This document shows, piece by piece, positions 48,101 to 64,000 of a stretch of 64,000 bases of DNA (position 1 is the stretch's first letter; every line of letters begins with the position of its first letter). The DNA comes from Malaciobacter pacificus (lineage in GTDB: Bacteria > Campylobacterota > Campylobacteria > Campylobacterales > Arcobacteraceae). The notes beneath the pieces are model-generated. The model made no database searches, was not told the DNA's origin, and saw nothing but the letters and a program-made list of their open reading frames with translations. The DNA lies in NCBI RefSeq assembly GCF_004214795.1, contig NZ_CP035928.1, forward strand, positions 310,001 through 374,000, given 5' to 3'. The position numbers and the translations under genes were made by a program.

Positions 48101-48532
48101 TTATTCTGGTTGAGGTAAAGATAAAACGTAAGTTCTAATTGCCCACATAGCTTCTTGTGGTAAGATACCTTTAAATGGTGGCATGTAAACATTACCATTT
48201 CTAACTGCACCATTCATAAATCTCTCAATAAACCACTCATCACCATCAAATCCAGCTTCTAAATATCTTAAATCAGGAGCAACTCCACCAGAAATTGCAT
48301 CTAATCCATGACATCTAGCACAGTTTTCAGAATATTGGATTTTTCCAAACTCAACTACTTTTTTATCATCAGTTTTGTATGGATTCTCTTCCAGCATCTC
48401 TTCACCTAATAATGGAATTCCAGCTTTTTTGATTACTTCAACATCAATTGCTTGTGGAGTTACACTACCATGTCCAAATGCACATACTGCAGAAAATAGT
48501 GCAGCTAATCCAATTTTTTGAATTTTATTCAT
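48101..48532 (-). CDS. pedF: PedF-like cytochrome c, electron acceptor of a PQQ dehydrogenase
   Basis: The 143-residue protein has a signal peptide (AALFSAVCAFGHG), one haem motif CARCH within YSENCARCHGLDAISG, and methionines in MNGAVRNGNVYMPPFKG, one of which is the likely sixth ligand. It resembles the cytochrome c-550 PedF/ExaB that takes electrons from PQQ ethanol dehydrogenases and passes them to the oxidase. I start at the ATG at 48532 with AAGGAC upstream; a longer frame would add 15 residues without a signal peptide. First gene of the leftward operon. Confidence 0.85.
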   Translation of the reverse strand: MNKIQKIGLAALFSAVCAFGHGSVTPQAIDVEVIKKAGIPLLGEEMLEENPYKTDDKKVVEFGKIQYSENCARCHGLDAISGGVAPDLRYLEAGFDGDEWFIERFMNGAVRNGNVYMPPFKGILPQEAMWAIRTYVLSLPQPE

Positions 48533-48566: not shown

Positions 48567-48599
48567 ATTATAGACAAATTTTATAGCTTGATTATAGCG
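48567..48599 (-). promoter_or_regulatory. PQQ-island promoter, site 1 (for the pedF operon)
   Basis: On the minus strand the site GCTATAATCAAGCTATA (48582-48598) is followed by 9 bases and TATAAT (48567-48572). It fits the GCTAAA-N5-GCTATA repeat shared by seven promoters of the island, with one mismatch in the first half. Confidence 0.75.
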
Positions 48600-48618: not shown

Positions 48619-48651
48619 TGCTAAACTCATGCTATAAAAATCCTATACAAT
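48619..48651 (+). promoter_or_regulatory. PQQ-island promoter, site 2 (for the TauA-like operon)
   Basis: TGCTAAACTCATGCTATA (48619-48636), 9 bases, TACAAT (48646-48651). The ATG follows 28 bases after the -10. Sites 1 and 2 share one divergent intergenic region, one per direction. Confidence 0.8.
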
Positions 48652-55796: not shown

Positions 55797-56246
55797 GCTA
55801 TCCAGTAAAATCTTTTTTAATTTCATATTTATATCATCAGCAATTTTATCATTGTTTCTTAGTTTATGATACTTTCTAAAAGAAATATATCTATGATTTT
55901 TATCAGAATAAACTGAAATGTTTAGTGGGCAATAAGTTATATTCTCAATATTTTCTTCATGCATTTGTAGTGTGAAACTACTTTTGCATATTAAAATATT
56001 TTTACCTTTGTTTAGCACTGCTTGTTTATCTAAATATTCAGCAATTTCTTTAGTAGATTTTGCTAAATCAAGTTCATGTACAACAACAAAACTATTGAAT
56101 TCAATTTCTGATTTTAAATCTACATATAATTGTTCAAATGATGTATCATCTATTTTTATAGTGTATATATAATCATTTTCAATTATCTCATATTTTGCAA
56201 AAGCAAAACTAGTAAATATTAAAAGTGAAGAAATGAATTTTTTCAT
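55788..56246 (-). CDS. DUF302 family exported protein
   Basis: The 152-residue protein has a signal peptide (1-17) and the DUF302 core with VVHELDLAKSTKEIAEYL and ILICKSSFTLQM. DUF302 proteins of unknown role occur next to PQQ dehydrogenase transporters and in sulfur-metabolism loci. It is second in a leftward operon; it overlaps the preceding ABC binding protein gene by 4 bases. Confidence 0.78.
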   Translation of the reverse strand: MKKFISSLLIFTSFAFAKYEIIENDYIYTIKIDDTSFEQLYVDLKSEIEFNSFVVVHELDLAKSTKEIAEYLDKQAVLNKGKNILICKSSFTLQMHEENIENITYCPLNISVYSDKNHRYISFRKYHKLRNNDKIADDINMKLKKILLDSLN

Positions 56247-57394
56247 TTCTTACACTCCATTTCAAATGGTGCAATACCTAAAGTATCTAAATCAGTAGTT
56301 GGATGTAAAAATCCTTCTTGTGGAGAAGTTGTAATTAAAGCTCTTGGTTGAACTAAACTAATTGGCATTCTTAGTTGACCATTATAATTTCTAAATGAAA
56401 TTTTTCTTCCCATATACGCTGCTAAATCAAATTTATCTGAGTGAATATAATCAAGATTTGTTTTTAAATCAGCAGTATTTGTCTTTGTGATTGCACCTAT
56501 GATAGATCTTATTGCCGTCCAGTTTGTATAATCTTTTGATTGCATCCATCTATTTGAAAATTTTTCAAATCTACTTTGCATTTGAGCTGCTCCCCAAGCT
56601 TCAATAACTTTATGCCATGCAGTTGGAGTTAATCCTTGCGTTCCAGCAATTGGTCTTGGAAGCCAAGTATTAAAATACATAAATTCACCAAAGTCACCGT
56701 AATGGTCAGCTAAAACAATTAAATCATAATCATTTGCTTGTGTAAATACTGGAAATTCACTATTAGCTTTTCTTCTAATATCGCTATTGTTATCCCAAAC
56801 TTTTTCTTTTACAATTTTAGCATTAAACTTTTTTACTGATCTTTTTATATCTTTTACAATCTCTTTATCTTTTTGATTTTCTCCACTAATTAAAAAGATA
56901 TCTTTAAAATCTCTTTTTACTAAAAATTGTACTAATCCATCATAAAGCATTGCATTAGAAGGTGCTGTATGAAAGAAATTTGGTAAACAGTAGTTTTGTC
57001 TTAAAGATGTTGTTGGACTACTTGCGTTAATCATTAAAGCTTTTTTAGAAAGAGGATTTTCTAATAACTCTTTTAATAGATCATCTTCAACATTTAATAC
57101 TATATAAGAGTTACCATTGTTTATAAACTCTTCAAAATTCTTTTTTAATTCTGCCTTATCGTAAGATATCTTTTCAATTAGATTAAAATGTTGTTTTAAA
57201 AATCTTGCACTTTTATTACTATCTTTTACTGCAATTTGAGCACCTTTTAATCCTAAGTCTTCGGGATCTTCAATTACATTTGAAAGTACAGGTGGTTTTT
57301 CGATTTTTTGTTCTAGATATAAAATATTTACTTCTAAATTGTTTGCATTTACCAATCCAAGTAAAAAAAGAAAAACAATAATAACTCTTCTCAT
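56243..57394 (-). CDS. PQQ-system ABC transporter binding protein (PedA1-like)
   Basis: The 383-residue exported protein has a signal peptide (1-17) and a two-lobed receptor fold similar to branched-chain amino acid binding proteins (INASSPTTSLRQNYCLPNFFHTAPSNAMLYDGL, WNPR-like C-terminus ending in ECKK). It matches the class of binding proteins found with PQQ-dependent dehydrogenases and their PedBC-type exporter (PedA1). In Pseudomonas putida that transporter supports growth with the lanthanide-dependent enzyme; here the genes are split. It is led by PQQ-island promoter 3. Confidence 0.8.
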   Translation of the reverse strand: MRRVIIVFLFLLGLVNANNLEVNILYLEQKIEKPPVLSNVIEDPEDLGLKGAQIAVKDSNKSARFLKQHFNLIEKISYDKAELKKNFEEFINNGNSYIVLNVEDDLLKELLENPLSKKALMINASSPTTSLRQNYCLPNFFHTAPSNAMLYDGLVQFLVKRDFKDIFLISGENQKDKEIVKDIKRSVKKFNAKIVKEKVWDNNSDIRRKANSEFPVFTQANDYDLIVLADHYGDFGEFMYFNTWLPRPIAGTQGLTPTAWHKVIEAWGAAQMQSRFEKFSNRWMQSKDYTNWTAIRSIIGAITKTNTADLKTNLDYIHSDKFDLAAYMGRKISFRNYNGQLRMPISLVQPRALITTSPQEGFLHPTTDLDTLGIAPFEMECKK

Positions 57395-57493: not shown

Positions 57494-57526
57494 TGCTAAA
57501 TTAATGCTATACTCTTTAAGTACAAT
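57494..57526 (+). promoter_or_regulatory. PQQ-island promoter, site 4 (for the 57557 operon)
   Basis: TGCTAAATTAATGCTATA (57494-57511), 9 bases, TACAAT (57521-57526). The ATG follows 31 bases after the -10. Confidence 0.8.
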
Positions 57527-57556: not shown

Positions 57557-57976
57557 ATGAAAAAAATCTTATTATTTGTAGCAGCGCTACTAGTTACATC
57601 TGAGTTTGCAATTGCAAAAAATTTAAAGGGTTTATTACATTCAAGAACAACATTAGAGCCAATCACTATTAGTGTAGGTAAAGAGCTTGCTGCTAAACCT
57701 TATAAACTTGAAGCTGGTAAATATTATAAATTAGTTTTAAAAAGTGATGGTTCTAGAGAAGTTCCAATTGTAGGTGCAGAGTTTTTTAGAAATATTTGGG
57801 TAAACCAGGTTTCTATTAATGATATTGAAGTTAGACCTTTAGGTTTAGATGGATTCGAGTTTGATGATGAAGGTGAGATAGAACTTACTTTTGTAACTAT
57901 TAAACCAGGTACTTATACATTAGGTTTACCATCAGCTAAAAGTGATAGAGAAAGAGCAATTTTTATTGTTGAATAA
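57557..57976 (+). CDS. Exported cupredoxin-like protein without clear copper ligands
   Basis: The 139-residue protein has a signal peptide ending near FAIA (residue 20) and a beta-rich body that ends PGTYTLGLPSAKSDRERAIFIVE, a shape like the last strands of cupredoxins. The usual Cys and His ligands are absent, so a copper site is unlikely. It is first of two genes led by PQQ-island promoter 4 and lies 18 bases before the beta-propeller gene. I do not recognise an exact family. Confidence 0.7.
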   Translation: MKKILLFVAALLVTSEFAIAKNLKGLLHSRTTLEPITISVGKELAAKPYKLEAGKYYKLVLKSDGSREVPIVGAEFFRNIWVNQVSINDIEVRPLGLDGFEFDDEGEIELTFVTIKPGTYTLGLPSAKSDRERAIFIVE

Positions 57977-57994: not shown

Positions 57995-58960
57995 ATGATG
58001 AAGAAATTAATTCTAACATCAATTTTAACTGCATCTATTCTAAGTGCAGATACAGTATTTGTATCAAATGAAAAAGATAACACTATAACAGTAATTGATT
58101 CAAAAACAGAAAAAGTTATAAATACTTATGAAGTAGGTCAGCGACCTAGAGGTATTTTGTTAAGTAATGATTATTCAAAACTATATATTTGTGCAAGTGA
58201 TGATGATACAGTTCAAGCTATGGATACAAAAACTGGAAAGATTTTATATAATCTTCCTTCAGGTGAAGATCCAGAACAGTTTGCATTACATCCAAATGGA
58301 AAAGAGCTTTACATTTCAAATGAAGATGATGGTATCGTAACAATTGTTGATGTTCCAAATAAAACTGTAATTTCACAAGTTGAAGTAGGTTTAGAGCCTG
58401 AAGGAATGGCTGTTAGTCCAGATGGAAGTGTAGCTATTAATACATCTGAAACTTCAAACTTTTTACACTGGATTGATACAAATACAAAAGAGATAATCCA
58501 TAATACTTTAGTTGATGCAAGACCAAGACATATTGAATTTACTAAAAGTGGGGATAAAATTTGGGCATCAAGTGAAATTGGTGGAACTGTGATGGTTGTT
58601 GATACTAAAACGAAAGAAGAGATTGCTAAATTTGGTTTTAAAATTCCTGGTATTTTTAAAGACTTAATTCAACCAGTTGGTATTAAATTAACTGATGATG
58701 GGAAATATGCTTTTGTTGCACTAGGTCCAGCAAATCATGTTGCAGTAGTTGATGCAAAAACATATAAAGTTATAAAATATTTATTAGTTGGGAAAAGAGT
58801 TTGGCAATTAGATTTTGCAAATAATCAGAAAAAACTATACACTACAAATGGTGTAAGTGGTGATGTTTCAATTATTGATGTGGAATCTTTAAAGGTAGAA
58901 AAGACAATAAAAGTTGGAAGATATCCTTGGGGATTAGCAGTAATTCCAAGCGATAAATAA
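57995..58960 (+). CDS. YVTN-type beta-propeller protein of the PQQ system (PedA2-like)
   Basis: The 321-residue exported protein (signal peptide 1-18) consists of about seven YVTN-like repeats, for example VFVSNEKDNTITVIDSKTEKV and LYISNEDDGIVTIVDVPNKTV. This is the beta-propeller found with PQQ-dependent alcohol dehydrogenases and their ABC transporter, named PedA2 in Pseudomonas putida. Its exact role is unknown, possibly docking in the periplasm. It is the second gene of its operon and has its own terminator. Confidence 0.86.
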   Translation: MMKKLILTSILTASILSADTVFVSNEKDNTITVIDSKTEKVINTYEVGQRPRGILLSNDYSKLYICASDDDTVQAMDTKTGKILYNLPSGEDPEQFALHPNGKELYISNEDDGIVTIVDVPNKTVISQVEVGLEPEGMAVSPDGSVAINTSETSNFLHWIDTNTKEIIHNTLVDARPRHIEFTKSGDKIWASSEIGGTVMVVDTKTKEEIAKFGFKIPGIFKDLIQPVGIKLTDDGKYAFVALGPANHVAVVDAKTYKVIKYLLVGKRVWQLDFANNQKKLYTTNGVSGDVSIIDVESLKVEKTIKVGRYPWGLAVIPSDK

Positions 58961-59165: not shown

Positions 59166-59198
59166 TGCTAAACTCAAGCTATAGTATAGATATATAAT
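59166..59198 (+). promoter_or_regulatory. PQQ-island promoter, site 5 (for the PQQ dehydrogenase)
   Basis: TGCTAAACTCAAGCTATA (59166-59183), 9 bases, TATAAT (59193-59198). The leader to the ATG is about 65 bases, longer than for the other sites. The rest of the 308-base gap (58961-59267) holds only the terminator and AT-rich sequence. Confidence 0.8.
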
Positions 59199-59267: not shown

Positions 59268-61154
59268 ATGAAAAACAATATGTTACAAAAAGCAGCTATT
59301 GTAACTTTTATTGGTTTATTAGGACTTCAATCAAGTATTGCAAGTACTGATACAAAAAAAGTATCGTGGGAAGATATACTTAATGACAAAAATACAACAG
59401 AAGATGTATTAATGTATGGTATGGGACCAGAAGCAACTAGATATTCTAAATTAGATCAAGTTAATACTAAAACTGTAAAAGATTTAGTACCGGTTTGGAG
59501 TTACTCATTTGGTGGAGAGAAACAAAGAGGACAAGAATCACAAGCATTAGTTCATGATGGGAAAATTTATGTTACAGGATCATATTCAAGAATATTTGCA
59601 TTAGATTCTAAAACTGGTAAAAAAATTTGGTCTTATGAACACAGATTACCAGCAGATATTAAACCTTGTTGTGACGTAATCAATAGAGGTGCAGCTATTT
59701 TTGGGGATAAAGTATTCTTTGGTACTTTAGATGCAGGTATTGTTGCTTTAAATAAAGATACTGGAAAAGTAATTTGGAAAAAAAGATTTGGTTATGAAGA
59801 TAGACCAAATAAAGGTTACCAAGACGGTTATACAATGACTGGTGCACCAACTATTGTAAAAGATAAAAAAACTGGTAAAGTAATGTTAATTCACGGTTCA
59901 TCAGGAGATGAATTTGGTGTAATTGGTAAATTATTTGCACTTGATCCTGATACAGGAAAAGAGATTTGGATGAGACCAATGGTTGAAGGTCACTACGGAA
60001 GATTAGATGGTAAGAAATCTACTCCAACAGGTGATCCAAAAGCTCCAACATGGCCAGATGACAAAAATAACCCAACTGGTAAAAAAACTGCGTGGAGCCA
60101 CGGTGGTGGTGCACCATGGCAAAGTGCTAGTTATGATTATGAAACAAACTCAATTATAATTGGAACTGGTAACCCAGCACCATGGAATACTTGGGAAAGA
60201 ACTGCTGATGGTGGAGATCCAAGAGATTGGGATAGTTTATATACTTCAGGTCAAATTGCAGTTGACCCTACAACTGGTGATATTAAATGGTTCTACCAAC
60301 ATACACCAAATGATGCATGGGATTTCTCAGGAAATAATGAGTTAGTATTATTTGATTATGTAGAAAATGGTAAAACAATTAAAGCAACAGGTCATGCAGA
60401 TAGAAATGGATTCTTCTATGTAATTAATAGAGAAGCTATGCCTAAAGCTGAAAAACAAAGAGAAGATCAAGCTAGAAGATTTATTAAAGCGTTCCCTTTT
60501 GTTGATAAAATCACATGGGCAAGTCATATTGATCCAAAAACAGGTAGACCTGTTGTAGATCCAAAGCAATACCCACCATTACCAAAAGAAGGTGAGACAA
60601 GAGGTGAAGCTATTCAAGTTGCTCCACCATTTTTAGGGGGTAAAAACTGGAATCCAATGGCATATAATGAAGATACAAAATTATTCTATTTAGGTGCGAA
60701 TCACTGGGAAGAAGATTATTGGACTCAACCTGTTAAATATAAAAAAGGTGCAGCATATTTAGGTCAAGGGTTTAGAATTAAAAGAACTTTTGATGATCAC
60801 GTTGGTATTTTAAGAGCAGTGGATCCAGTAAAAGGTGAGATTGTATGGTCTCATAAAGAGAAATTACCATTATGGGCTGGTGTATTAACTACAAAAGGTG
60901 GTTTAGTATTTACAGGTACTGGTGAAGGTTATGTAAAAGCATTTGATGCAAAAACTGGTGAAGAGTTATGGAAATTCCAAACAGGTTCTGGAATTATTTC
61001 TTGTCCAATTACTTGGGAAGAAAATGGTGAACAATATATTGGTTTAGCTAGTGGATACGGTGGTGCTGTACCTTTATGGGGTGGAGACATGGCTGATTTA
61101 ACTAAACCTGTTTCTCAAGGTGGATCTTTCTGGGTATTTAAACTTAAAAAATAA
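59268..61154 (+). CDS. PQQ-dependent alcohol dehydrogenase (ExaA/PedE type)
   Basis: The 628-residue enzyme is an eight-bladed quinoprotein alcohol dehydrogenase with a signal peptide (1-25). The vicinal disulfide is C134-C135 in KPCCD; metal ligands expected by family are E215 (GDEFGV), N302 (GNPAPW) and the catalytic D352 in WDFSGNNE. The residue two after the catalytic Asp is S354, as in the calcium-dependent PedE/ExaA class, not the Asp of lanthanide enzymes. It probably oxidises ethanol or other short alcohols in the periplasm and passes electrons to the PedF-like cytochrome. AAGGAGAG precedes the ATG. Confidence 0.93.
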   Translation: MKNNMLQKAAIVTFIGLLGLQSSIASTDTKKVSWEDILNDKNTTEDVLMYGMGPEATRYSKLDQVNTKTVKDLVPVWSYSFGGEKQRGQESQALVHDGKIYVTGSYSRIFALDSKTGKKIWSYEHRLPADIKPCCDVINRGAAIFGDKVFFGTLDAGIVALNKDTGKVIWKKRFGYEDRPNKGYQDGYTMTGAPTIVKDKKTGKVMLIHGSSGDEFGVIGKLFALDPDTGKEIWMRPMVEGHYGRLDGKKSTPTGDPKAPTWPDDKNNPTGKKTAWSHGGGAPWQSASYDYETNSIIIGTGNPAPWNTWERTADGGDPRDWDSLYTSGQIAVDPTTGDIKWFYQHTPNDAWDFSGNNELVLFDYVENGKTIKATGHADRNGFFYVINREAMPKAEKQREDQARRFIKAFPFVDKITWASHIDPKTGRPVVDPKQYPPLPKEGETRGEAIQVAPPFLGGKNWNPMAYNEDTKLFYLGANHWEEDYWTQPVKYKKGAAYLGQGFRIKRTFDDHVGILRAVDPVKGEIVWSHKEKLPLWAGVLTTKGGLVFTGTGEGYVKAFDAKTGEELWKFQTGSGIISCPITWEENGEQYIGLASGYGGAVPLWGGDMADLTKPVSQGGSFWVFKLKK

Positions 61155-61227: not shown

Positions 61228-61923
61228 ATGAGAAATTTGATAATCATACTAGTTGCTTTTGTTGGCTTTCTTTATGGATATGAAGATGATATAAAAGTAA
61301 TTAATGGATGTAAACTAGTGCCAAATACACAATGTAAAAAAGTTGATTTAAGTAATCAAAATCTTTCAGGCTTAGATTTAAAAGGATCTAACTTTGAAGG
61401 TGCAAATTTTGAAGGCTCTATTCTTGATGGAACGGATTTAACTAAGGCTATACTTAAAAATTCGAACTTTAAAAATGCAAAATTAAGGCATGCAATTTTA
61501 AAGCAATCAGATATAAGTAATTCAAATTTTGTGAATGCAAATTTAGCAAGAGCAGATTTAAGACATGCAAATATGAAGGTCGCACAAGCATCAAATGCAA
61601 ATTTTGATGGAGTAAATGCATGGGCTTTATTTGCTCAAGGAAGTAATTTTGACAACTCTTCATTTCATGGTGCTAATTTTCAATTTGCAAGAATGAGTGG
61701 TTCTAGTATGCGAAATTGTAATTTACAAGCTATAAGTTTAGAAGCAGCATGGATGACTAGGGTAAATTTTGAAAATTCAAACTTTACTAATGCTTATTTA
61801 CAAGAGACTAAATTAGGTAATTCATCTTTACTAAAAGCAATTTTTACTGGAACTAGAATTCATTATGCAAATTTAAGTGGAGTTCTTATGGATGATTGTA
61901 TAGATTGTCCCACAAATTGGTAA
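61228..61923 (+). CDS. Exported pentapeptide-repeat protein
   Basis: The 231-residue protein has a signal peptide (1-17), two cysteines (C31 and C39) in a short N-terminal segment, then about 30 pentapeptide units of the A(N/D)LXX type (LDLKGSNFEGANFEGSILDG, and on to the end), and a final DDCIDCPTNW tail. Such proteins form a right-handed quadrilateral beta-helix. Similar genes lie beside PQQ dehydrogenase genes in other bacteria but have no established role. No PQQ box precedes it, so it is probably read through from the dehydrogenase gene. Confidence 0.85.
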   Translation: MRNLIIILVAFVGFLYGYEDDIKVINGCKLVPNTQCKKVDLSNQNLSGLDLKGSNFEGANFEGSILDGTDLTKAILKNSNFKNAKLRHAILKQSDISNSNFVNANLARADLRHANMKVAQASNANFDGVNAWALFAQGSNFDNSSFHGANFQFARMSGSSMRNCNLQAISLEAAWMTRVNFENSNFTNAYLQETKLGNSSLLKAIFTGTRIHYANLSGVLMDDCIDCPTNW

Positions 61924-61946
61924 ATCTTATAAAGGAGGTAAATGAC

Positions 61947-62021
61947 ATGAAATGGGAAACACCTATGTTTATAGATAATAGATTTGGTTTTGAAGTTACA
62001 ATGTATATTTGTAATGAATAA
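61947..62021 (+). CDS. pqqA: PQQ precursor peptide PqqA
   Basis: A 24-codon frame with a very strong AAAGGAGG site encodes a peptide with the PqqA pattern: MKWETPMFIDNRF, then GFEVTMYICNE. E16 and Y20 are the two residues that PqqE links to build the PQQ core, and their spacing (E-x3-Y) is exact; FIDxRxGxEVTxYIxN matches the family consensus closely. It lies 23 bases after the pentapeptide-repeat gene and is followed by a stable hairpin. No pqqB, C, D or E is in the window; they may lie to the right or elsewhere. Confidence 0.93.
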   Translation: MKWETPMFIDNRFGFEVTMYICNE

Positions 62022-62052
62022 TAAAAAATAACTGGTCTCCTTTAGTTTTTAG

Positions 62053-62085
62053 GATATATAACTTGAGTTTTTCAAGTTATATATC
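62053..62085 (+). terminator. Strong hairpin after pqqA
   Basis: GATATATAACTTGA and TCAAGTTATATATC form a perfect 14-bp stem with a 5-base loop, followed by a T-containing stretch. It separates pqqA from the PedB-like gene and would allow pqqA to be made in large excess. Confidence 0.8.
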
Positions 62086-62099
62086 TCTTACAATTAATA

Positions 62100-62132
62100 T
62101 GCTAAATTAATGCTACAAACATTTCATATAAT
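62100..62132 (+). promoter_or_regulatory. PQQ-island promoter, site 6 (for the PedBC-like genes)
   Basis: TGCTAAATTAATGCTACA (62100-62117), 9 bases, TATAAT (62127-62132). The ATG at 62163 lies 30 bases after the -10. It follows the pqqA hairpin directly. Confidence 0.8.
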
Positions 62133-62162: not shown

Positions 62163-62885
62163 ATGAGTAAAAATATATTAGAACTAAAAGACGTTGAGTT
62201 TTCTTATGGTAGTAAAAAAGTATTAAACAATATATCTTTTAACATAAAAGAAGGAAGTTTCTCTGTTCTTCTTGGATTAAACGGTGCAGGTAAATCTACA
62301 GTTTTCTCTTTAATAACAAGACTTTTAAAATTGCAAGTAGGAAAAATTAATATAAATCAATATCCAATTAACGAATATTCAAAAGCTTTAAAAGATATTG
62401 GAATAGTATTTCAAGAGCCAACTTTAGATTTAGACTTAACAGTTAAACAAAATTTATATTATTATGGTTCATTAAAGGGCCTAAATTTCAAACAAACACT
62501 TGAATCTATTGGTGATGAGATTGTAAGACTTGAACTTCAAGATTCTCTTGATACTCCAGCTAGAAGATTAAATGGAGGACATAGAAGAAGAGTTGAAATT
62601 TTAAGAGCACTTATAAATAGACCTAAGCTTTTATTACTAGATGAACCAACTGTTGGTTTAGACTTAAAAAGTAGATTTGATATATTAGAGTATGTAAGAG
62701 ATTTAGTAAAAAGAGAAAATCTTTCAGTACTTTGGATTACACATCTATTTGATGAGGTTAATGAAGAAGACGATATTTCATTTATAAAAACTGGTCAAAT
62801 TGTTGAAGCTGGTATTGTAAAAGATATTGTAGCAAAATATGAAAAAGAAAATTTAGTTGAAACATTCAACCATTTAGTAAGGTAA
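62163..62885 (+). CDS. PQQ-system ABC transporter ATP-binding protein (PedB-like)
   Basis: The ATPase of 240 residues has Walker A GLNGAGKST near 38-46, Q-loop VFQEPTLD, a variant signature LNGGHRRR, Walker B LLLLDEPTVGLD and switch WITHLFDE. With the ABC-2 type permease that follows (3 bases apart), it forms an exporter of the type found with PQQ dehydrogenases. I start at the ATG at 62163, since the GTG at 62154 has no better site. Substrate unknown; a toxic oxidation product or a metal chelate have been suggested for relatives. Confidence 0.87.
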   Translation: MSKNILELKDVEFSYGSKKVLNNISFNIKEGSFSVLLGLNGAGKSTVFSLITRLLKLQVGKININQYPINEYSKALKDIGIVFQEPTLDLDLTVKQNLYYYGSLKGLNFKQTLESIGDEIVRLELQDSLDTPARRLNGGHRRRVEILRALINRPKLLLLDEPTVGLDLKSRFDILEYVRDLVKRENLSVLWITHLFDEVNEEDDISFIKTGQIVEAGIVKDIVAKYEKENLVETFNHLVR

Positions 62886-62888
62886 AAA

Positions 62889-63671
62889 ATGAATATTTAT
62901 TTTAATTGTATGAAGGGTATTGTTTATAAAGAATTAATTAGATTTATAAAACAGAAAAGTAGATTTTTTTCAGCATTAGTAAGACCTCTTTTATGGTTAT
63001 TTATTTTTTCTGTTGGATTTAAAACAGCATTAGGTTTAGCTATAACACCTCCATATGAAACATATATAACTTATGAAACATATATTGTTCCAGGACTTGT
63101 TGGAATGGTTTTACTTTTTAATGGTATGCAAAGTTCATTGACTATGATTTTTGATAGAGAAATGGGAAGTATGAAAATTCTTTTATCATCTTATATAAAT
63201 AGAAACTACTTATTATTTTGTAAAATGTTTGCTACATCAATTGTTTCTACTATTCAAGCAATTACGTTTTTATTAATTGCAAAATGGTATGGAGTTGATA
63301 TTAGTTTTCTAGCAATAGTTATTACAATTCCTGTAATTATTATATCTTCTATAATTCTAAATGCTTTTGCACTATTTTTATCCTCTGTAATCAAACAGTT
63401 AGAGAACTTTGCAACAGTGATGAATTTTGTTATTTTCCCAATGTTCTTTTTAAGTTCAGCGCTTTATCCTTTATGGAAAATAAAAGATTCTTCAATTTTA
63501 TTATTTGAAATATCATCATATAACCCATTTACTTATATAGTTGAAGCCATAAGGTTCAGTTTATATCTAAAATTTGATATTCAGGTTTTTTTAATATTAG
63601 GAATTTCTCTTGTTATTACCCTTATAATGGCATTTGTAGGATTTAAATCTAAAAAAGTTAATCATGGCTAA
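62889..63671 (+). CDS. PQQ-system ABC-2 type permease (PedC-like)
   Basis: The 260-residue permease has six membrane helices, typical for ABC-2 exporters, with GLVGMVLLFNGMQSSLTMIFDREMGSMK in the first loop. It pairs with the adjacent ATPase. Its last codons overlap PQQ-island promoter 7 for the second dehydrogenase. Confidence 0.86.
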   Translation: MNIYFNCMKGIVYKELIRFIKQKSRFFSALVRPLLWLFIFSVGFKTALGLAITPPYETYITYETYIVPGLVGMVLLFNGMQSSLTMIFDREMGSMKILLSSYINRNYLLFCKMFATSIVSTIQAITFLLIAKWYGVDISFLAIVITIPVIIISSIILNAFALFLSSVIKQLENFATVMNFVIFPMFFLSSALYPLWKIKDSSILLFEISSYNPFTYIVEAIRFSLYLKFDIQVFLILGISLVITLIMAFVGFKSKKVNHG

Positions 63672-63698
63672 ATTTACGCTATATTTCTCATGTATACT
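63666..63698 (+). promoter_or_regulatory. PQQ-island promoter, site 7 (for the second PQQ dehydrogenase)
   Basis: GGCTAAATTTACGCTATA (63666-63683), 9 bases, TATACT (63693-63698). The site overlaps the stop codon of the permease gene. The ATG lies 52 bases after the -10. Confidence 0.78.
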
Positions 63699-63749: not shown

Positions 63750-64000
63750 ATGTTAAAAAACAGATTGCTTACAAGTGCAGCTGCTGTATCATTATCTGCA
63801 TTACTTACAGGTTGTGTAGCTGATAGTAATGTAGCTAAAACAGAAGCTAGCGCGACAAAAGCTGCTTATACACCAGTTACTAGTAACGATGTATTAAATG
63901 ATGTAAAAACTACAGGTGATGTATTATCAAATGGTATGGGATTACAGGGACAAAGATTCTCACCATTAACTCAAATTAATAAAGAGACAGTTAAAGATTT
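63750..64000 (+). CDS. Second PQQ-dependent dehydrogenase, predicted lipoprotein (partial, N-terminus)
   Basis: Only the first 83 residues are in the window. The signal sequence ends in a lipobox LLTGC (C22), so the protein is probably lipid-anchored, unlike the soluble first enzyme. After a short linker, DVLNDVKTTGDVLSNGMGLQGQRFSPLTQINKET parallels the first dehydrogenase (DILNDKNTTEDVLMYGMGPEATRYSKLDQVNTKT). The strong AAGGAGAGAC site is the same as before the first dehydrogenase. Whether it is the lanthanide type depends on residues outside the window. Confidence 0.85.
   Translation, partial: MLKNRLLTSAAAVSLSALLTGCVADSNVAKTEASATKAAYTPVTSNDVLNDVKTTGDVLSNGMGLQGQRFSPLTQINKETVKD

Follow-up and report, generated by a model that had tools for sequence, protein, structure and literature searches.

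The finding of a 24-codon open reading frame resembling pqqA in Malaciobacter pacificus, within a DNA stretch where no pqqB, pqqC, pqqD or pqqE is found, raises the question of whether this gene (here pqqA1) encodes a genuine PqqA precursor peptide, and of how it relates to the rest of the pathway. The stretch analyzed, called the window hereafter, comprises 64 kb (G000:C1:310001-374000) of the single-contig genome of 2.66 Mb, and pqqA1 starts at G000:371947. Its product was matched by both curated models, with 41.9 bits against TIGR02107 (cut-off 20) and 33.2 bits against PF08042 PqqA in a genome-wide search (cut-off 21.1, E 2.7e-7), or 35.3 bits against the same cut-off when the peptide was scored alone. 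As the first-pass annotation had stated, the gene has a strong ribosome site, lies between a pentapeptide-repeat gene and a strong hairpin (Table 1), and encodes Glu16 and Tyr20 with three residues between them (E16 V T M Y20), which is the residue pair joined by PqqE (PMC10906245). Both residues are invariant in an alignment of 10 copies of the PqqA family, in which 16 of the 24 residues are invariant while synonymous sites vary, in such a way that a chance open reading frame can be discarded. Judged from these matches, 61947-62021 is a genuine PqqA gene.

The apparent isolation of pqqA1 was addressed by searching the whole genome, where pqqB, pqqC, pqqD and pqqE were all detected above curated cut-offs. 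The pqqB gene starts 3.76 kb downstream of pqqA1 and is followed by pqqC, pqqD and pqqE, the four genes extending from 3.76 to 6.8 kb downstream. Their absence from the 64 kb, correctly reported before, is purely due to the window edge, which falls 1.78 kb short of pqqB, so the description of pqqA1 as hidden and away from pqqBCDE was an artefact of that edge, as a single cluster holds all of them. It had also been proposed that the cell produces PQQ, and that a genome devoid of pqqE or pqqC would make pqqA1 an orphan peptide. Since both genes were found, together with pqqB and pqqD, the cell very probably makes PQQ, and an orphan peptide without connection to PQQ is so improbable, with pqqBCDE in the same cluster and the PqqA family models matched above cut-off, that we discarded it. 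No dedicated PqqF was found in the genome, where two general M16 proteins are present, the better of them reaching 46.6 bits against the PqqF model (cut-off 320), and a non-dedicated protease may serve the pathway. Pathway calls are skewed both by genes as short as pqqA and by window edges.

Table 1. Features of the PQQ cluster. Positions are those of the window, except where preceded by G000 (the genome).
Feature	Position	Strand	Evidence or remark
Cytochrome c-550 PedF	48101..48532	-	TIGR04494, 175.4 bits (cut-off 122)
Promoter box facing pedF, relaxed pattern	48567..48598	-	-10 TATAAT
Promoter box facing second ABC operon	48620..48651	+	-10 TACAAT
PedA1-like ABC substrate-binding protein	56243..57394	-	TIGR03863, 422.9 bits (cut-off 413.6)
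Promoter box ahead of 139-aa gene and PedA2-like gene	57495..57526	+	-10 TACAAT
PedA2-like PQQ-associated beta-propeller protein	57995..58960	+	TIGR03866, 495.7 bits (cut-off 287)
Promoter box GCTAAACTCAAGCTATA ahead of ADH1-pedD-pqqA1 (putative transcript)	59167..59198	+	-10 TATAAT at 59193-59198
ADH1, calcium-type PQQ alcohol dehydrogenase (ExaA/PedE-like)	59268..61154	+	TIGR03075, 723.6 bits; Ser in WDFSG
PedD-like pentapeptide-repeat protein between ADH1 and pqqA1	61228..61923	+	Pfam PF00805, 169 bits
Shine-Dalgarno AAAGGAGG of pqqA1	61931..61938	+	Sequence; ATG 8 nt further on
pqqA1, PqqA precursor peptide MKWETPMFIDNRFGFEVTMYICNE	61947..62021	+	24 codons plus TAA; curated-model matches, E16/Y20
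15-bp hairpin 3' of pqqA1, without T-run	62052..62086	+	Fold -19.6 kcal/mol (region), z -4.41
Promoter box ahead of PedB-like gene (PedBC)	62101..62132	+	-10 TATAAT
PedB-like ABC ATPase	62163..62885	+	Best match TIGR03864 PQQ_ABC_ATP, 283 bits, just below cut-off 302
PedC-like ABC permease	62889..63671	+	TIGR03861, 337.6 bits (cut-off 241)
Promoter box ahead of ADH2 (and pqqA2)	63667..63698	+	-10 TATACT
ADH2 start, lanthanide-type PQQ alcohol dehydrogenase (PedH-like)	63750..64000, runs past window	+	Asp in WDFDG
pqqA2	G000:375563		Peptide MKWETPMFVDNRFGFEVTMYICHN
pqqB	G000:375780-376697		378 bits, above cut-off
pqqC	G000:376712-377458		332 bits, above cut-off
pqqD	about G000:377427-377696		100 bits, above cut-off
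pqqE	G000:377686-378816		472 bits, above cut-off
pqqA3	G000:382138 (L004:17139-17213)		Peptide MKWEKPQFVDNRFGFEVTMYICTK
OmpR-type regulator	G000:382255-382914		Encoded next to FIST-domain histidine kinase
Box sites ahead of ExaC-like aldehyde dehydrogenase	G000:384921-384959 (L004:19922-19960)		

Two PQQ alcohol dehydrogenases are encoded in the cluster. The best solved relative of ADH1 is ExaA (1flg, 1014 bits), to which its WDFSG site was aligned, and that of ADH2 is 6zcw (898 bits), an entry titled quinoprotein ethanol dehydrogenase which we take to be PedH, to which the WDFDG site was aligned. An extra Asp at the metal site (WDxDG) marks the lanthanide-dependent type (PMC5487730), and by their metal-site residues ADH1 would be the calcium form and ADH2 the lanthanide form. 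The ped-type set of PQQ alcohol dehydrogenase, PedF and PedABC-like transporter is present, with the PedB model slightly under its cut-off. PedF is likely the electron acceptor of the dehydrogenases, and alcohol oxidation by the cluster appears to rely on two enzymes, one of calcium type and one of lanthanide type. The PedA2-like operon also encodes a protein of 139 amino acids (57557-57976) that is kept in several relatives and had no match in Pfam or NCBIfam.

The genome contains three copies of pqqA, all of them intact and with strong ribosome sites, the Shine-Dalgarno elements of the other two copies being comparable to that of pqqA1. The distances from pqqA1 to these two downstream copies are 3.6 and 10.2 kb. 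While pqqA1 follows the calcium-type (ExaA/PedE-like) dehydrogenase and the PedD-like pentapeptide protein, pqqA2 is located beyond the window between the lanthanide-type (PedH-like) dehydrogenase and pqqBCDE. The third copy is isolated, flanked by an AraC-type gene and the gene for an OmpR-type regulator; it has its own TGGTATAAT, and its ribosome site is immediately preceded by a perfect 8-bp inverted repeat. Within the family Arcobacteraceae, pqqA was detected in 30 of 104 genomes, as a single copy in each of the other 29, and pqqC in 31 of 104; in the phylum sample, pqqA was present in 10 of 397 genomes. Pseudomonas aeruginosa has one pqqA.

We compared the gene order with that of relatives. 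Those with only the calcium-type enzyme (G373, G411 and G426) show the order ADH1-pentapeptide-pqqA-pqqBCDE, and in G402 a calcium-type dehydrogenase gene likewise lies upstream of pqqA, whereas relatives with only the lanthanide-type enzyme show the order ABC-ADH2-pqqA-pqqBCDE. In the present genome, ADH1-pentapeptide-pqqA1 is followed by ABC-ADH2-pqqA2-pqqBCDE, so that pqqA1 is placed as pqqA is in the calcium arrangement, and pqqA2 as it is in the lanthanide one. In terms of gene order, the locus is a junction of two arrangements that are separate in relatives, Ca-ADH-pedD-pqqA and Ln-ADH-pqqA. Two further genomes (G448 and G450) encode both dehydrogenases with one pqqA each, and thus the doubling of pqqA is not obligatory.

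A promoter box with the pattern GCTAWAYTNANGCTAYA, a direct repeat GCTA-N7-GCTA with a -10 element at fixed spacing, precedes several of these genes. Seven exact sites were found in the 2.66 Mb, all on the + strand and all in the cluster, within 26.3 kb, and the reversed control pattern gave 0 sites in the genome; inside the window, five were seen versus 0.02 expected. Among 97 distinct box sites drawn from the present locus and related ones, 86 have a TANANT -10 that starts exactly 26 bases past the first G, with 6 or fewer at any other offset. As read from the sequence, this layout is that of an activator-bound direct repeat replacing the -35 element. Box sites also stand ahead of the ExaC-like aldehyde dehydrogenase gene, where four GCTA half-sites in 11-bp steps form three overlapping boxes, divergent from the FIST-kinase/OmpR operon. 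In many relatives, some of them PQQ-negative, boxes of this kind are likewise found near the kinase. A box stands directly 5' of pqqA itself in G373 and G402, supporting that pqqA belongs to the box regulon in relatives. No box of its own was found for pqqA1, for which co-transcription across 2.7 kb is consequently assumed.

The cluster is flanked, here and in nearly all the relatives read, by genes for a FIST-domain histidine kinase and an OmpR-type regulator, the kinase being present in 31 of the 31 PQQ-positive genomes. The mean number of boxes was 7.2 in these 31 genomes, 1.8 in 31 genomes with the kinase only and 0.4 in 42 genomes with neither. The association between box and kinase was strong (Fisher p about 1e-14), with figures inflated by shared ancestry, as the genomes compared are relatives, whose boxes cannot count as independent. 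The distance from box to kinase start was 91-123 bases in the ten kinase-only genomes that were checked. The boxes probably serve as binding sites for the OmpR-type regulator, whose gene lies beside that of the FIST-domain kinase. The AraC-type gene was considered a less likely candidate, as many PQQ-positive relatives lack it next to the cluster, whereas the kinase is found in 31 of 31.

Putting these elements together, we regard as likely a scheme in which pqqA1 is a working gene co-transcribed with ADH1 and pedD from the box at 59167, pqqA2 is expressed likewise with the lanthanide-type dehydrogenase gene and pqqBCDE, and the OmpR-type regulator binds the boxes. The transcript from 59167 would most likely carry ADH1, the PedD-like protein and, at its 3' end, pqqA1. 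The PqqA1 peptide would be cross-linked at Glu16 and Tyr20 by PqqE with PqqD, and then completed by proteolysis, PqqB and PqqC, all these proteins except the protease being encoded a few kilobases downstream. In this way the supply of PQQ would rise along with the dehydrogenase that needs it, pqqA2 playing the equivalent role for the lanthanide-type dehydrogenase and pqqBCDE. A more specific proposal, that each metal form has its own pqqA and that precursor supply is switched with the calcium or the lanthanide enzyme by a FIST-kinase/OmpR-type regulon through the GCTA-N7-GCTA box, is put forward as a tentative one.

The presence of three copies could also be a plain dosage device for the precursor peptide, unconnected with the metal or the dehydrogenase in use. 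This explanation is a serious candidate, though somewhat short of probable: few positions distinguish the three peptides, and PqqA supply has been reported, as cited in PMC11317620, to be rate-determining in Methylovorus, with five copies; but two of the copies here lie each behind a different dehydrogenase, each dehydrogenase has its own promoter box, and pqqA copies elsewhere show differing expression levels (PMC9851590). It is rather unlikely, in our view, that pqqA1 is a redundant relic carried along when a calcium-type module was joined to a lanthanide-type locus, with pqqA2 doing all the work. The position of pqqA1, being that of pqqA in the calcium-only relatives, would fit such an origin, as would G448, in which the two dehydrogenase genes are similarly ordered and pedD is not followed by a pqqA. 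Nevertheless, the frame, the Shine-Dalgarno site and all conserved residues of pqqA1 are intact, and the comparison with pqqA2 gave an estimated dN of 0.07 versus a dS of 0.68, values from few sites; a gene of 24 codons gives selection tests little power.

The scheme of a working pqqA1 expressed with its dehydrogenase was compared with known systems. The ped cluster of Pseudomonas putida has in common with the present one the calcium and lanthanide dehydrogenases of PedE/PedH type, a PedA1A2BC-like ABC transporter, a PedD-like protein and PedF (PMC12997753), the pentapeptide protein PedD adjoining pedE in Pseudomonas (PMC12997753). By contrast, the present cluster includes the pqq genes and extra pqqA copies, and the regulatory genes conserved next to it encode a FIST-domain kinase and an OmpR-type response regulator. 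The exaA/pqq region of P. aeruginosa shares a calcium-type ExaA, a pentapeptide neighbor (PA1981), an ExaC-type aldehyde dehydrogenase and a nearby pqq operon, but encodes only the calcium-type enzyme (PMC12997753). Several pqqA copies with a single pqqBCDE set are also found in Methylophilaceae, with 3-12 pqqA per genome (PMC4109929), and in Methylorubrum extorquens AM1, where two orphan pqqA respond to lanthanide supply (PMC11317620); unlike in these, two copies here lie directly behind calcium-type and lanthanide-type dehydrogenase operons, and in Campylobacterota. Multi-copy pqqA and ped clusters are thus already known, and the gene arrangement and the promoter box look new for Campylobacterota, no description of a PQQ/lanthanide system of this kind in Arcobacter, Epsilonproteobacteria or Campylobacterota having been found in titles and abstracts. 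PQQ and lanthanide biology has mostly been studied in Pseudomonas and methylotrophs, and a compact cluster with a pqqA per dehydrogenase and a sharp promoter box would provide a testable Campylobacterota system for the matching of cofactor supply to enzyme.

In two relatives, Arcobacter caeni (L084:10698-17374) and G408 (L089:8015-14714), a cassette adjoins the pqq genes. Its products are a second PqqE (480.8 bits in A. caeni), a second PqqC (258.8 bits), three U32 proteins (one UbiV-like, two UbiU-like), an IlvE-like aminotransferase and a protein of around 305 amino acids, and box promoters lie between its genes. The cassette of G408 separates pqqA from pqqB, and in the 20 kb read there no PqqE other than the second type was found. 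Searches with pqqC and pqqE gave no such cassette in the genome of the window, and a search for its UbiU-like gene on plasmids gave no match. In the UbiV-like proteins, the Fe-S cysteines known from E. coli UbiV are all kept (C39, C180, C193 and C197, 4 of 4). UbiU-UbiV are O2-independent hydroxylases (PMC6747719), and the cassette may be a route to PQQ without oxygen.

A hairpin is found 3' of every pqqA in the present genome, and of pqqA in 20 of the 20 relatives examined, with differing sequences. An intrinsic terminator after pqqA1 was discarded, as a strict scan of the region gave none and the hairpin has no T-run; its function is perhaps 3'-end protection or partial termination, and the one after pqqA2 may separate an abundant pqqA transcript from pqqBCDE. 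A possible pairing of the pqqA1 ribosome site (TAAAGGAG) with CTCCTTTA directly 3' of the gene was taken as chance, because it is absent at pqqA2 and pqqA3. A second long inverted repeat was observed immediately 5' of pqqB (L004:10720-10770) and in many relatives, among which its sequence differs and the pairing is kept.
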